A stretch of DNA of 64,000 nt from a virus. Every line of letters begins with the position of its first letter. Position 1 is the first letter of the stretch. The DNA lies in the IMG/VR virus record IMGVR_UViG_3300032050_015761, positions 1 to 64,000 of that record; one strand, given 5' to 3'. The position numbers and the translations under genes are program-made. Below the pieces are notes generated by a model, which made no database searches, was not told where the DNA came from, and saw only the letters and a program-made list of their open reading frames with translations. This document shows positions 29,821 to 63,983 of this stretch, one piece after another.

Positions 29821-30747
29821 ATGAGTAATGAAAATTTTTATACAATTCTTGGAGTTAGTGAAAACGCGACTCAAGACGAAATAAAAAAGGCTTACAGAAA
29901 AAAGGCAATAGAATATCATCCCGATAAAGGAGGTTCTGAGGAACAGTTTAAAAAAATATCAGAAGCTTACGATAATTTGGGTGATGAAAATAAAAGAAGA
30001 GATTATGATAATAAAAGGAATAATCCATTTGCCGACTTTGGAGGTTTTGGAGGTAACCCATTTGAAGATTTTTTTGGAAACCAATTTTATAGACAAAGAA
30101 AAAGGACTGTACCCGATAAAGTAATTGATATAAATGTTGGAGCGATAGAATCCTTTAAAGGAAGTGAAAAAACTATAACATACCAAAGGAAACACTCTTG
30201 TAAAATGTGTAACGGTACTGGTGGTGAAAAAAATATTTGTAGTGATTGTTCAGGTAACGGATTCTTTGAAACCAGAATAGGAACAGGACTATTTGTACAA
30301 TTGGTTAGACAACCATGTCAAAAGTGTAGTGGGAATGGATTTTCATTTAAAAGTAGATGTATAACTTGTAACGGAGAATCTACAATAACTCAAATGGAGA
30401 CAATATCATTTAAATTACCTGTTGGGGTTGACAACGGTCAGTTTTTTAAATTACAGGGCAATGGAGATTACCATCAAGGGATATACGGTAATTTAGTAAT
30501 AAAGATTAATCTTGTTTCAGAAAACAATTTTGAAAAATCCGAAAACGATTTAATTTATAATTCTTATCTAACAATAAAAGAAATACAAAAAGATACTATT
30601 GATATTCCTCATCCTGACGGAATGTTAAATATCAAATTACCAAACGAATTCGACACTTCAAAACCATTAAGAATTAAATCAAAAGGATATTACGGACAAG
30701 GAGATATGTATGTTAAATTATTTATAAAGATTAAAAGAAATCCTTAA
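29821..30747 (+). CDS. DnaJ-family (Hsp40) co-chaperone
   Basis: 308 residues. J-domain at 1-70 with the HPD motif (YHPDKGG, ~33-35), a Gly/Phe-rich linker ([15 protein letters not shown], ~73-90), a zinc domain with [24 protein letters not shown] and CITCNGES (~128-185; the last repeat lacks its final Gly), and a substrate-binding C-domain. This is a type A DnaJ slightly shorter than bacterial DnaJ (~375 aa). It should recruit the host DnaK, since no DnaK is seen here; phage assembly or redirection of the host chaperone system is the likely use. Confidence 0.9.
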
Positions 30748-30868
30748 ATAATTTAATTGTTCCGTATATTGATGAGAATAAAATATACATTGATATTAAA
30801 ACCATAATCCAATGAGTTGGATTTAATCCCTTTTTTTTACAATTACCACAAGGTTTTTTTGTTTCCAT
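30731..30868 (-). CDS. Tiny membrane protein with N-terminal CxxC
   Basis: 45 residues: [13 protein letters not shown], then one hydrophobic helix (~19-38). The CPC-like N-terminus followed by a membrane span resembles other tiny phage CxxC-membrane proteins. It starts 1 nt after the stop of the gene at 30870-31361 and ends inside the 3' end of the convergent dnaJ-like gene (17-nt overlap). A TATTTATT box lies 8 nt upstream on the minus strand. Confidence 0.55.
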
Positions 30869-30869
30869 A

Positions 30870-31361
30870 TTAATCAAATAAATAGTATTGGATAAATTTA
30901 CCATTTATTTTTGTATTTGTAAAGGACTCTATAATGTTATGGTCACCATCCTCATCAATAATTATAACATTGTTCTTATGGGGGTTAAATAATTTTCTTG
31001 GATGTCTTATAGATGTGTTAATAGTTAGAATGATTTTATCATCTCTAACTTTATCAATCCACATATGATAATCAAACTCTAAGAAGTTATCTCTAACAAT
31101 TAACGCACATTCCTTATCATAAGAATCGCACCAACCAAGTATTTTATTTATTTGTTTACCAACAACAGGTTCAATATCCTGTAAAGAATCTAAAATTTCA
31201 TCATAAGGAACTCTTTGTAAATGATAATTACCTTGACCTTCTCTAGAATGAGGATTGGCCTCAACATCTATTGTTTGAAGAATATTTCCGTTTTGGTATT
31301 CAAATCTGTGGATTAATTTATGTTCTAATAATAAAGACTTTAATGTTTCTAATAATTTCAT
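30870..31361 (-). CDS. Protein of unknown function, possible tag-type N-terminus
   Basis: 163 residues. N-terminus MKLLETLKSLLLEHKLIHRF fits the basic/hydrophobic (L/I)xE pattern of the tagged set. The rest is mixed alpha/beta with WCDSYDKECALIVRDN and FDYHMWIDKV segments. No catalytic motif recognised. A class-2 box GATATTTATA ends 5 nt before the ATG. Confidence 0.65.
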   Translation of the reverse strand: MKLLETLKSLLLEHKLIHRFEYQNGNILQTIDVEANPHSREGQGNYHLQRVPYDEILDSLQDIEPVVGKQINKILGWCDSYDKECALIVRDNFLEFDYHMWIDKVRDDKIILTINTSIRHPRKLFNPHKNNVIIIDEDGDHNIIESFTNTKINGKFIQYYLFD

Positions 31362-31366
31362 ACTAT

Positions 31367-31376
31367 TATAAATATC
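31367..31376 (-). promoter_or_regulatory. Class-2 box GATATTTATA (minus strand)
   Basis: GATATTTATA in minus sense ends 5 nt before the ATG at 31361. It also follows directly after the hairpin at 31381-31398, where it would form the end of any upstream RNA. Confidence 0.5.
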
Positions 31377-31412
31377 AAAACCCCCCGAAAAATCGGAGGG
31401 TTTTTTTATTTT
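31377..31412. terminator. GC-rich hairpin with plus-strand T-run (possibly bidirectional)
   Basis: Stem CCCCCCGA/TCGGAGGG (one mismatch) with AAAA loop, flanked by AAAA and TTTTTTTATTTTT on the plus strand. On the minus strand it is followed by TTTTGATATTTA, a weaker U-tract, and so could end the ncRNA candidate. Confidence 0.7.
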
Positions 31413-31503
31413 TCATCACCTGGATTGGGGGATTTAAACCCGAACTGACACCCTCAGTTCTTTAGGGTTGGGTTTTAAGGATTTCCCAACATTCCCTCAT
31501 TCA
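31381..31503 (-). ncRNA. Structured non-coding RNA candidate
   Basis: A ~120-nt non-coding stretch begins just downstream of an exact host-type promoter on the minus strand and ends at a GC-rich hairpin. In minus sense it can fold into a long imperfect stem: GGAATGTTGGG pairs with CCCCAATCC (3-nt bulge), then TTAAAACCC with GGGTTTAA, enclosing hairpin GAACTG-AGGGTGT-CAGTTC (31442-31460). The segment GGG-TTTAAAT-CCC resembles a tRNA T-loop, but no full cloverleaf forms. No ORF of note. Function unknown; a small RNA or a structured leader is possible. Confidence 0.5.
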
Positions 31504-31508
31504 CAATA

Positions 31509-31540
31509 CAAATATACGAATTATTTTGATTCCAGCCAAA
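31509..31540 (-). promoter_or_regulatory. Class-1 host-type promoter for the ncRNA candidate (minus strand)
   Basis: On the minus strand TTTG (31540-31537), a 20-bp spacer and TATATTTG (31516-31509) form an exact Bacteroidetes promoter. There is no ORF right behind it, only the structured region. Confidence 0.7.
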
Positions 31541-31613: not shown

Positions 31614-32453
31614 ATGCTATCTTACATCGGAGGAAAATCAAAAATCGGTAAATGGATTGTCCCATTCATACCAAAAGATATTGAAACATACGTAGAACCG
31701 TTTTCAGGAATGTATTGGGTTTACTTCAATATGGAATTAAAACAATATCCTAACTTAAAAAAAATCGTATATAACGACTTTAATCCATTAAACTATAATC
31801 TGTTTAATTGTGTTAAAAATCCAACAGAATTGTTGAAAGCGATAAACTCGATTGAATGTCAACAATTTGGAGTTGAAGATACTCCACCACATTTAAAAGA
31901 ACAATTTGTAAAATTTCAAACAGAAATATTCAACGAAGGATTTAAAGTTAATGATTGCGATTATGAAACCGCGGCTAAATACGTATACATAATAACACAA
32001 GTTTTTAGTGGGTCAAAACCTGAGACAAGTTCATATATAGATTTAAAAGGTAAATATAAATCAAAATATTTAACATTTAGAGATAAATTAAGTAAACCTG
32101 AATGGGTTGACCATTTTATAAAAATAACCGAAGTAGAGAATATGGACTTTGAAGATGTAATTAAAAAATACGATAGTCCAACGTCTTATTTTTATACCGA
32201 CCCACCGTACTGGAAAACAGAAAATTATTACTCAAATCACGATTTTGATAGAAATGACCACGAAAGACTTGCAAACTCATTAAAAAATACTCAAGGAAAA
32301 TTTTCTTTATCTTATTACGATTTCCCAATTTTATCAGAGTGGTTTCCAAAAGACCAATATAGATGGGAAAGTAAGTTATTTGCCAAGGCGGCGGCCGCTA
32401 AAAAAGGAAAGTCCCAAAATATGGGAGAAGAATTATTAATTTTGAATTATTAA
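31614..32453 (+). CDS. D12-class DNA adenine-N6 methyltransferase
   Basis: 279 residues with the Dam/D12 motif order: SYIGGKSKIGKWI at the N-terminus (FxGxK-type), TYVEPFSGMYW (SAM-binding motif I, ~34), VYNDFNPLN (~58) and catalytic TDPPYW (DPPY, ~200). It should methylate adenine in phage DNA, probably against host restriction. The ~160-bp AT-rich gap upstream shows no clear class-1 or class-2 box. Target sequence cannot be predicted. The second D12 enzyme at 42047 is only distantly similar. Confidence 0.85.
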   Translation: MLSYIGGKSKIGKWIVPFIPKDIETYVEPFSGMYWVYFNMELKQYPNLKKIVYNDFNPLNYNLFNCVKNPTELLKAINSIECQQFGVEDTPPHLKEQFVKFQTEIFNEGFKVNDCDYETAAKYVYIITQVFSGSKPETSSYIDLKGKYKSKYLTFRDKLSKPEWVDHFIKITEVENMDFEDVIKKYDSPTSYFYTDPPYWKTENYYSNHDFDRNDHERLANSLKNTQGKFSLSYYDFPILSEWFPKDQYRWESKLFAKAAAAKKGKSQNMGEELLILNY

Positions 32454-48833: not shown

Positions 48834-48876
48834 TAAACCCTGAAATCGTAAAAAAATTTTGGGGTTTTTTATTTTT
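48834..48876 (+). terminator. Possible terminator upstream of smpB
   Basis: AAACCCtgAAA pairs with TTTTGGGGTTT and is followed by TTTTTTATTTTTT. It overlaps the -33 element of the smpB promoter. An upstream TATTTATT at 48785-48792 could direct transcription into it. Confidence 0.55.
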
Positions 48877-48888
48877 TACCTATCTTTG
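48858..48888 (+). promoter_or_regulatory. Class-1 host-type promoter for smpB
   Basis: TTTG at 48858-48861, a 19-bp spacer, TATCTTTG at 48881-48888. The ATG at 48896 follows 7 nt after the box, so the leader is only a few nucleotides. Confidence 0.75.
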
Positions 48889-48895
48889 TATTCTA

Positions 48896-49330
48896 ATGTT
48901 AAAAAATACCACAATAGAAAACAGGTCAGCAACCTACAATTTCTTTTTAGAAGAGAAATTTACCGCAGGAATATCTTTATTCGGACCTGAAGTTAAATCC
49001 ATTAGAAACGGAGATGTAAGTATCAAGGAATCATTCTGTTACGTTAAAGATGGTGAGATATGGATTAAAAATATGTATATCAAACATTATGAACATTCAA
49101 GGATTGAATTTGATTCTAAAAGAGATAGAAAACTTTTGTTAAAAAAGAAGGAAATTCGTAAAATAGAATCATTCTTAATAGACAAAGGTAAAACTCTAAT
49201 ACCTGTTAGAATTGAGGTTGGAAAATTAATTAAGGTTGTGATATCGATTGCAAAAGGTAAAAAGAACTATGATAAACGAAACACAATAAGGGAGAGGGAT
49301 TTAGACCGTCAAAATAAATTTGGTGAATAG
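48896..49330 (+). CDS. smpB: SmpB, SsrA-binding protein of trans-translation
   Basis: 144 residues aligning with bacterial SmpB end to end: TYNFFLEEKFTAGISLFGPE, VKSIRNGDVSIKESFCYV, KRDRKLLLKKKEI, VISIAKGKKNYDKR and the C-terminal basic tail RERDLDRQNKFGE. The beta-barrel tmRNA-binding surface and the GKKxYDKR motif are kept; the tail is about as long as in Bacteroidetes SmpB, so the protein looks intact. No tmRNA gene is visible next to it, so it should act with host tmRNA, either boosting ribosome rescue or interfering with it. Host-type promoter suggests early expression. Confidence 0.92.
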   Translation: MLKNTTIENRSATYNFFLEEKFTAGISLFGPEVKSIRNGDVSIKESFCYVKDGEIWIKNMYIKHYEHSRIEFDSKRDRKLLLKKKEIRKIESFLIDKGKTLIPVRIEVGKLIKVVISIAKGKKNYDKRNTIRERDLDRQNKFGE

Positions 49331-50260: not shown

Positions 50261-50581
50261 ATGGACATAAAAAATAATTTTAACCCTTGGTATTATTATC
50301 TTAACGAAGAACTGATTAAGAAAAAGAAACCAATTAAACCTGGTGAGTTTGTTCACCTTCATACCTACGATGGTTGTTTTATGGTATATAACGTTGGATT
50401 AACCCATTTTACCGTGATTAAAAACCGAAGGTATGTAAACATTCCTTGGAGTGATTTTAGATGTAAAAAAGGAGAAGGAAACAGTGATAAAACCGTTATT
50501 AAACGGTCAATTAAAAATATCGATAACATTAAGTTAGAATTAGATAATTTAAAATTTAATCTTTTAAATTTGGTAAATTAA
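50261..50581 (+). CDS. Small protein of unknown function
   Basis: 106 residues, beta-rich N-terminal half (KPGEFVHLHTYDGCFMVYNV) and a helical C-terminus. Starts 5 nt after the peptidase-like gene and is probably in the same transcript. No motif recognised. Confidence 0.65.
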   Translation: MDIKNNFNPWYYYLNEELIKKKKPIKPGEFVHLHTYDGCFMVYNVGLTHFTVIKNRRYVNIPWSDFRCKKGEGNSDKTVIKRSIKNIDNIKLELDNLKFNLLNLVN

Positions 50582-50600
50582 AAATTAATTTGTATATTTG
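50569..50600 (+). promoter_or_regulatory. Class-1 host-type promoter
   Basis: TTTG (50569-50572), 20-bp spacer, TATATTTG (50593-50600). ATG 50619 follows 18 nt later. Confidence 0.78.
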
Positions 50601-50618
50601 TATTATAAAATTAAAGTA

Positions 50619-56208: not shown

Positions 56209-56652
56209 ATGAAGAAGAAAGAATTCCTATCTAAATACAAAAAAGTAATCAAAAAAATTGATAAAAAAATTGATAATGTTAATCGTGGTGGGTGTGGAAT
56301 ATATGCACTTGAATTAGGTAAACAACTAAAAAGACACGATATTAAATTCGAGTATGTTATGTTATTTACCCATTTAGGTAAAGAAGACAAACCTTATGTT
56401 AAAGACCTAATGAGAAACAATATGGTTAGAGATTTTAACTTTGACACTAATTGGACTCATATTGTAATTAAGGTGGGTAAAAAGTATATTGATGGAGAGG
56501 AAATTAGGGAATCTTTAACTGATGTAGGATTACCTATGAATGAGGAATTTTTAAATAATTTGGTTGACCATAAGGGTTACTGGAACGACACTTTCGACAG
56601 GAAACAAAGAACAAAAATCGAAAAAATATTGGAAAAAAATTTGGCAGATTGA
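56209..56652 (+). CDS. Small papain/transglutaminase-like protein
   Basis: 147 residues from ATG 56209. GGCGIYALELGKQLKRHDIKF (split: Cys near residue 27) followed by NWTHIVIKVGKKYIDGE with His (~86) and Asp (~95) gives a Cys-His-Asp order seen in papain-like and transglutaminase-like folds. Activity unproven. It has a perfect host-type promoter and may be an early host-modifying protein together with the similar-style product of 49737. Confidence 0.6.
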   Translation: MKKKEFLSKYKKVIKKIDKKIDNVNRGGCGIYALELGKQLKRHDIKFEYVMLFTHLGKEDKPYVKDLMRNNMVRDFNFDTNWTHIVIKVGKKYIDGEEIRESLTDVGLPMNEEFLNNLVDHKGYWNDTFDRKQRTKIEKILEKNLAD

Positions 56653-56671
56653 AAATAATTTTGTATCTTTG
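56640..56671 (+). promoter_or_regulatory. Class-1 host-type promoter
   Basis: TTTG (56640-56643), 20-bp spacer, TATCTTTG (56664-56671). ATG codons at 56682 and 56691 follow. Confidence 0.8.
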
Positions 56672-56681
56672 TATTATAATA

Positions 56682-63952: not shown

Positions 63953-63983
63953 TTTGTAATATAGAAAATGTTTCTTATCTTTG
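63953..63983 (+). promoter_or_regulatory. Class-1 host-type promoter at the window edge
   Basis: TTTG (63953-63956), 19-bp spacer, TATCTTTG (63976-63983), with an ATG at 63997 that would start a gene continuing beyond the window. Confidence 0.7.

Follow-up and report, generated by a model that had tools for sequence, protein, structure and literature searches.

Antitoxins of the type III systems, i.e., ToxI, CptI, and TenpI, consist of H-type pseudoknot units, sometimes in tandem, and possess their own promoter (PMC5086642). An intrinsic terminator and then a gene of ~160 aa follow. In such systems RNA and toxin share one promoter, and the toxin, an endoribonuclease, processes the RNA to single repeats, which in turn inhibit it. 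Pseudo-ToxI, the RNA decoy of phage PhiTE escape mutants, is likewise antitoxin-like (PMC5086642), and the RNA anti-CRISPRs (Racr) are small phage RNAs with a decoy function towards host defence (PMC10651486). Apart from tRNAs, the RNA genes of large uncultured phages have been little explored.

The structured RNA family described here is previously undescribed; it is supported comparatively and occurs in large uncultured phages. One member is located in the window, the whole stretch of 64 kb that was analysed out of a virus record of 107,291 bases. Similar to type III systems, its putative pseudoknot unit has a promoter of its own and is followed by an intrinsic terminator (31404-31377) and a gene of comparable size (gene B, from 31361). 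Unlike type III antitoxins, the phage unit would combine two different pseudoknots (57 nt) with a hairpin in one or two copies, and gene B has its own late box, no recognisable ToxN fold, and can be missing while the RNA survives. Pseudo-ToxI shares with it the appearance of an antitoxin-like RNA carried by a phage, but arose from ToxI-matching repeats, whereas no bacterial counterpart of the present RNA was found. The Racrs are small phage RNAs as well, although a decoy role is only proposed here; they mimic CRISPR repeats. The features of the locus are as follows.

31614..32453, plus strand: divergent DNA adenine methyltransferase gene, D12-class (Pfam MethyltransfD12, E 5.5e-24), marking the syntenic position
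31509..31540, minus strand: host-type promoter (Bacteroidota -33/-7), TTTG-N20-TATATTTG, read directly from the sequence
31377..31505, minus strand: predicted RNA of about 130 nt, spanning promoter to terminator
31478..31496, minus strand: likely pseudoknot PKa, GGGA (31496-31493) with UCCU of the P2 loop (31481-31478), variants in relatives
31467..31490, minus strand: hairpin P2, well supported, GTTGGG (31490-31485) / CCCAAC (31472-31467), two double-sided pair changes in the window
31451..31467, minus strand: likely pseudoknot PKb, CCCU (31467-31464) with AGGG of the P3 loop (31454-31451), variants in relatives
31442..31460, minus strand: hairpin P3, GAACTG (31460-31455) / CAGTTC (31447-31442), 7-nt loop AGGGTGT, covarying
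31429..31441, minus strand: likely hairpin P4, GGG-TTTAAAT-CCC ("T-loop-like" element), 96% of cells paired
31411..31416, minus strand: tail ATGAAA, conserved as RTGAAA in nearly all members and probably single-stranded
31377..31404, minus strand: intrinsic terminator, 12-bp hairpin and U run, z -4.6
31367..31374, minus strand: late-type box TATTTATA of gene B; about 18 ORFs of the window have this box 4-12 nt ahead of them
30870..31361, minus strand: gene B, encoding 163 aa with the leader MKLLETLKSLLLE; it shows genetic linkage to the RNA, which does not depend on it

Promoters of the form TTTG / TAnnTTTG are of the Bacteroidota type. The first-pass annotation had proposed that such a promoter leads into a structured RNA rather than an ORF, and this arrangement is indeed present: on the minus strand, TTTG (31540-31537) is followed by N20 and TATATTTG (31516-31509), and the next ORF of at least 50 aa is 147 nt away. 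About ten intergenic copies of the promoter occur in the window, that of the RNA gene included, and nearly all others are situated 4-32 nt ahead of an ORF, with few exceptions; similar copies at 50566-50604 and 56621-56675 (plus strand) each lie just ahead of one. A host-type promoter at 63954-63983 (plus strand) is close to the window end, and its gene falls beyond it. No ORF of at least 50 aa was detected on the minus strand inside 31377..31505. The RNA start is placed by inference at 31505-31502, and due to its predicted transcription from a host sigma-factor promoter the RNA is probably expressed early. The terminal GC-rich hairpin, also noticed at first pass, is a strong terminator hairpin, and the gene behind it has its own box (31374-31367), as had been stated and as is the case for about 17 other ORFs of the window. 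The folding energy of the whole transcript (z -1.6 versus shuffles) is reduced to z -0.29 without the terminator, with 70 of 200 shuffles folding equally well or better, so that one sequence alone could not decide.

A search with the methyltransferase resulted in 80 loci, many of which carry at the same spot a host-type promoter, 100-200 nt of non-coding sequence, and a terminator; further members were gathered by patterns for the first hairpin and the tail. In a MAFFT alignment, 17 modules including that of the window required little gapping. Covariance model R2, from which the window had been left out, matched 31411-31495 on the minus strand with 49.4 bits (E 8.6e-10, 64 kb searched); this is the sole significant match, the next-best in the window having E 1.3. 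Model R1 found the family once in the window's record. In the annotated collection, the locus is closest to genomes of uncultured phages, 634-735 kb in size, whose DNA is 64-69% identical across the methyltransferase region. The largest phages of Al-Shayeb and colleagues are predicted by these authors to replicate in Bacteroidetes (PMC7162821), and promoter type together with the predicted hosts of the relatives points to a host of the Bacteroidota type.

Two P2-P3 modules per transcript unit occur in loci L021, L056, L176, L202, and L172, and L273 contains two complete units in tandem. In case of L203/L212 and L232, the RNA is found in a 3'UTR setting, after a stop codon and before a terminator, without a recognisable promoter. 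The pattern GTTCGGGTTTAAATCCC matched four viral contigs, none of which contains the module. In one exact-pattern scan of bacterial genome contigs, a weak test for homologues and for a host RNA that the phage RNA would mimic, 14 hits were scattered over unrelated phyla; the best of them upon re-scoring had E 0.003 at 57% GC, and all were taken as chance.

About 20 distinct modules share a conserved fold of two consecutive hairpins (P2 and P3), each of which an H-type pseudoknot appears to close, and a subsequent GGG/CCC hairpin (P4). Both the 6-bp hairpin with a 7-nt loop (GAACTG-AGGGTGT-CAGTTC) and the GGG-TTTAAAT-CCC element that the first-pass annotation had pointed out are present. The long imperfect stem in which it had placed them (P1, 5' GGGTAA with 3' TTACC) is the MFE fold of the single sequence; besides the window it suits part of the relatives, whereas others, e.g., L221, do not fit, and it was abandoned in favour of the two hairpins with H-type pseudoknots seen in the relatives. 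Covariation of P3 is proven by the alignments, since all 6 of its 6 pairs are altered on both sides somewhere in the family; its 18 distinct versions keep 99% of pairs compared to 75.5% in shuffles (0/2000). P2 is well supported by the exchange of GTCAG/CTGAC in relatives versus GTTGGG/CCCAAC in the window, where two pairs are compensated. Considering P2 and P3 in the 17-module alignment including the window, 92% of cells are paired versus 79% when shuffled and 18-41% when slid, and the covariation score is 0.48 versus 0.22 in shuffles (0/500). For 14 units excluding the window, P2, P3, P4, and the two pseudoknots are paired in 96.6% of cells (slid 31-46%) with a five-helix covariation score of 0.307 versus 0.187 (0/500), most of this signal being supplied by P3. 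Slid pairings thus fall to 18-46% from 92-97%. A lack of compensatory changes in relatives had been named beforehand as refuting the candidate; such changes were found.

PKa, PKb, and P4 are likely, judging from the variants in relatives. PKa is near-invariant (AGGA/UCCU); the L023/L028/L172 group has GGGA/UCCC instead, and the window GGGA/UCCU. In case of PKb, CGCC, CGCU, CACU, CAUC, and CAUU of the relatives each pair with GGUG (100% of cells, alignment A6), and L023 reads CACA/AGUG. This variation is one-sided in the 14-unit set; the window adds a double-sided change (CCCU/AGGG), the first C being shared with the outer P2 pair. Shuffle tests of PKa and PKb alone, in which the PKb register of L023 is one base off, were not significant. 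Consisting mostly of one-sided changes with few independent compensations, the variation renders the two pseudoknots moderately well shown. P4 reads GGGU/ACCY in relatives and varies on one side only. Most relatives open with an additional 5' hairpin (e.g., GTGGTTAACCAC, TTGAGTAATCAA) that the window lacks. Loop lengths differ as well (L1 1 or 2 nt; second loop of PKa 6, 9, or 10 nt). Since the helices are kept while loop lengths shift by non-multiples of three, no conserved reading frame was found, and a small protein-coding gene was rejected as explanation. A mini-ORF in the tail (ATG-AAA-TAA) was dismissed as well, its conservation missing in some members.

The B protein shows 28-41% identity to its relatives, with a leader of the form MKLLxxLKSLIxE. 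In 53 phage records, B was present in 8, all RNA-positive (8/8), and in 0 of 42 RNA-negative ones, 3 records contain the RNA without B, four have a distant A type, and the rest neither; these records are fragments, partly selected through the locus, and B records were obtained mainly via the methyltransferase or the RNA, so that the asymmetry is suggestive and not a measured rate. In L149/L268 and L266/L270, RNA and promoter occur with no gene B behind. In L136/L272 and L269, B is a remnant composed of the first codons and the C-terminal end with an internal deletion, whereas RNA, promoter, and terminator are intact. Due to two separate losses of B with retention of the RNA, the latter is not there solely to serve B. 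By this comparison the RNA is independent of B, and together with the covarying family fold this bears out the independent structured RNA that had been supposed.

Searches with B resulted in no convincing match in Pfam, PHROG, and PADLOC and no meaningful match to PDB sequences; AlphaFold2 models (pLDDT 69.5 and 79.3) matched no PDB fold below E 0.1, and neither exact 8-mers nor tblastn revealed homologues of the window B protein in phages. A viral fold match to a "site-specific RNA endonuclease" protein (E 0.006, TM 0.45) was discarded as too weak. Internal head proteins of T4 carry N-terminal capsid-targeting propeptides that are removed by the prohead protease (PMC9026906). By analogy, the leader of B may be a capsid-targeting signal, because of its shape, its presence on other phage genes, and the late-type box. 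A leader MKxLxxxxxLIxE is found on otherwise unrelated proteins (31361, minus; 32498, plus; 4536, minus; many genes of L203, L232, and L259), and may represent a propeptide cut by the prohead protease. The TATTTAT box situated 4-12 nt ahead of about 18 ORFs is probably the late promoter of the phage; in the window these ORFs include 4536, 7941, 12956, 30868, 31361, 39266, 43740, 48727, 51769, 52055, 53390, 55817, 58624, 59045, 60910, 63933, and others. A small membrane protein is encoded at 30731-30868 (minus strand); many relatives have it beside the methyltransferase, whether or not they carry the RNA.

Transcript unit, family, fold core, modularity, and independence from B establish, as far as comparison of sequences can, that the RNA gene is real. 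A host sigma-factor promoter would drive a ~130-nt RNA, probably early, and its own terminator would end the transcript; the RNA would fold into two H-type pseudoknots in succession, followed by a short hairpin, and act in trans as a structure that binds a protein. Trans action and protein binding are suggested because P3 keeps its shape and not its sequence, because units duplicate, and because the RNA occurs with and without B and in varied genomic settings; copies in 3'UTRs could act in cis. As candidate roles we consider that of a decoy, directed at a host factor of defence or RNA processing, and that of an antidote against phage protein B. A small phage RNA gene that acts in trans and binds a protein, as decoy or antidote, is the reading we tentatively prefer and regard as quite possible. 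It is tempting to speculate, although rather doubtful, that B is packaged into the capsid and injected into the next host, the early pseudoknot RNA being its antidote; a toxin-antitoxin pair would then be divided between the virion (protein) and early transcription (RNA). Owing to the antitoxin-like organisation and the one-way linkage with a protein gene that changes fast, RNA-based takeover or counter-defence by Bacteroidota phages may become directly testable.

Among the other explanations, a type III-like toxin-antitoxin system in a virus, in which the early pseudoknot RNA would be the antitoxin and B the toxin, an RNase produced late and perhaps present in the virion, is unlikely, yet deserves consideration: the order promoter, pseudoknot RNA, intrinsic terminator, and gene matches type III systems, PKa resembles the CptI pseudoknot in its one-base first loop and long A-rich second loop (PMC5086642), and B occurs solely alongside the RNA, which also occurs without B. 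However, a late box of its own precedes B, which matches neither the ToxN, CptN, or TenpN families nor a solved fold (pLDDT 79 model), the window contains a single module, and the asymmetry is partly ascertainment, records having been reached through the methyltransferase or the RNA. The pseudoknots, two per unit with compatible and few compensatory changes, are repeated in some members only, and an endoribonuclease like ToxN, CptN, or TenpN was not recognised in B by Pfam, PDB sequence, or PDB fold searches. The likeness would thus lie in organisation and pseudoknot type, and membership in type III fails, as far as testable, on the toxin. Somewhat less probable is a cis element that would serve the mRNA of a neighbouring phage gene as leader, attenuator, or 3'-end protector. 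The RNA does directly follow stop codons and precede a terminator in L203/L212 and L232, and at the main locus it precedes terminator and gene, but the gene past the terminator owns a late box, the RNA is retained both after deletion of B (L136, L269) and where B is absent (L149, L266), and the terminator stems vary across the family without consistent pairing with the module. A riboswitch or leader of gene B was rejected due to B's own late box and the persistence of the RNA without B.

An antisense-type sRNA that pairs via the tail (RTGAAA...) or the loops is less probable still: the tail is conserved and probably unpaired in almost all members, but the GGUG and UCCU loops are accounted for by the pseudoknots, and few other single-stranded positions are strictly conserved. 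A tRNA- or tmRNA-like RNA partnering the phage SmpB, as the first-pass annotation had found tempting, is very improbable. SmpB is indeed encoded (48914-49315, plus strand, E 3e-48) behind a host-type promoter, and several pseudoknots in one small RNA are also known from tmRNA, but a tRNA-like domain, a tag frame, and a match to RF00023 are missing. In accordance with the admitted lack of a cloverleaf, ARAGORN detected no tRNA or tmRNA in the region and its relatives, no CCA-bearing acceptor stem occurs in the relatives, and RF00023 matched over just 17 nt, below threshold, at another place of the 107-kb record. Rfam 15 at gathering score yielded no match in the window or relatives; sub-threshold matches track the terminator hairpin and were disregarded. 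SmpB and RNA do not co-occur consistently: RNA-positive records of 304 kb and 224 kb lack SmpB and two SmpB-positive ones lack a convincing RNA, all of these being fragments. The SmpB gene region (48859-49315, plus strand) lies directly behind its promoter, and the 107-kb record contains no tmRNA. Chance structure in an intergenic spacer, to which the unexceptional folding energy after removal of the terminator would lend itself, is refuted by the independent R2 match, with covariation also against it, and its probability is close to negligible.

A further RNA locus was observed in L258, L259, L260, and L261 (about 1490-1720), with a probable H-type pseudoknot (GATTG..ATTGGT.TCAATC..ACCAAT) followed by GTGTC/GACAC and a hairpin of the form AGG-loop-TCC. 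Two terminators and another structured stretch (CCGTTATCCGTTAGGGTAACG) are also part of this locus. With E 2e-5 to 0.009 for R1 and about 0.02 for R2, these are possible remote relatives. Upstream of the methyltransferase, where other phages have the present RNA, L004, L007, L061, and L151 carry a different one (type A), and the protein encoded behind it is distantly related. Covariation is seen in the 5' hairpin of the type A RNA (GTGG-TTAA-CCAC, GTAG-TTAA-CTAC), and its 3' part is similar to that of the L028/L172 RNAs, which suggests module swapping.
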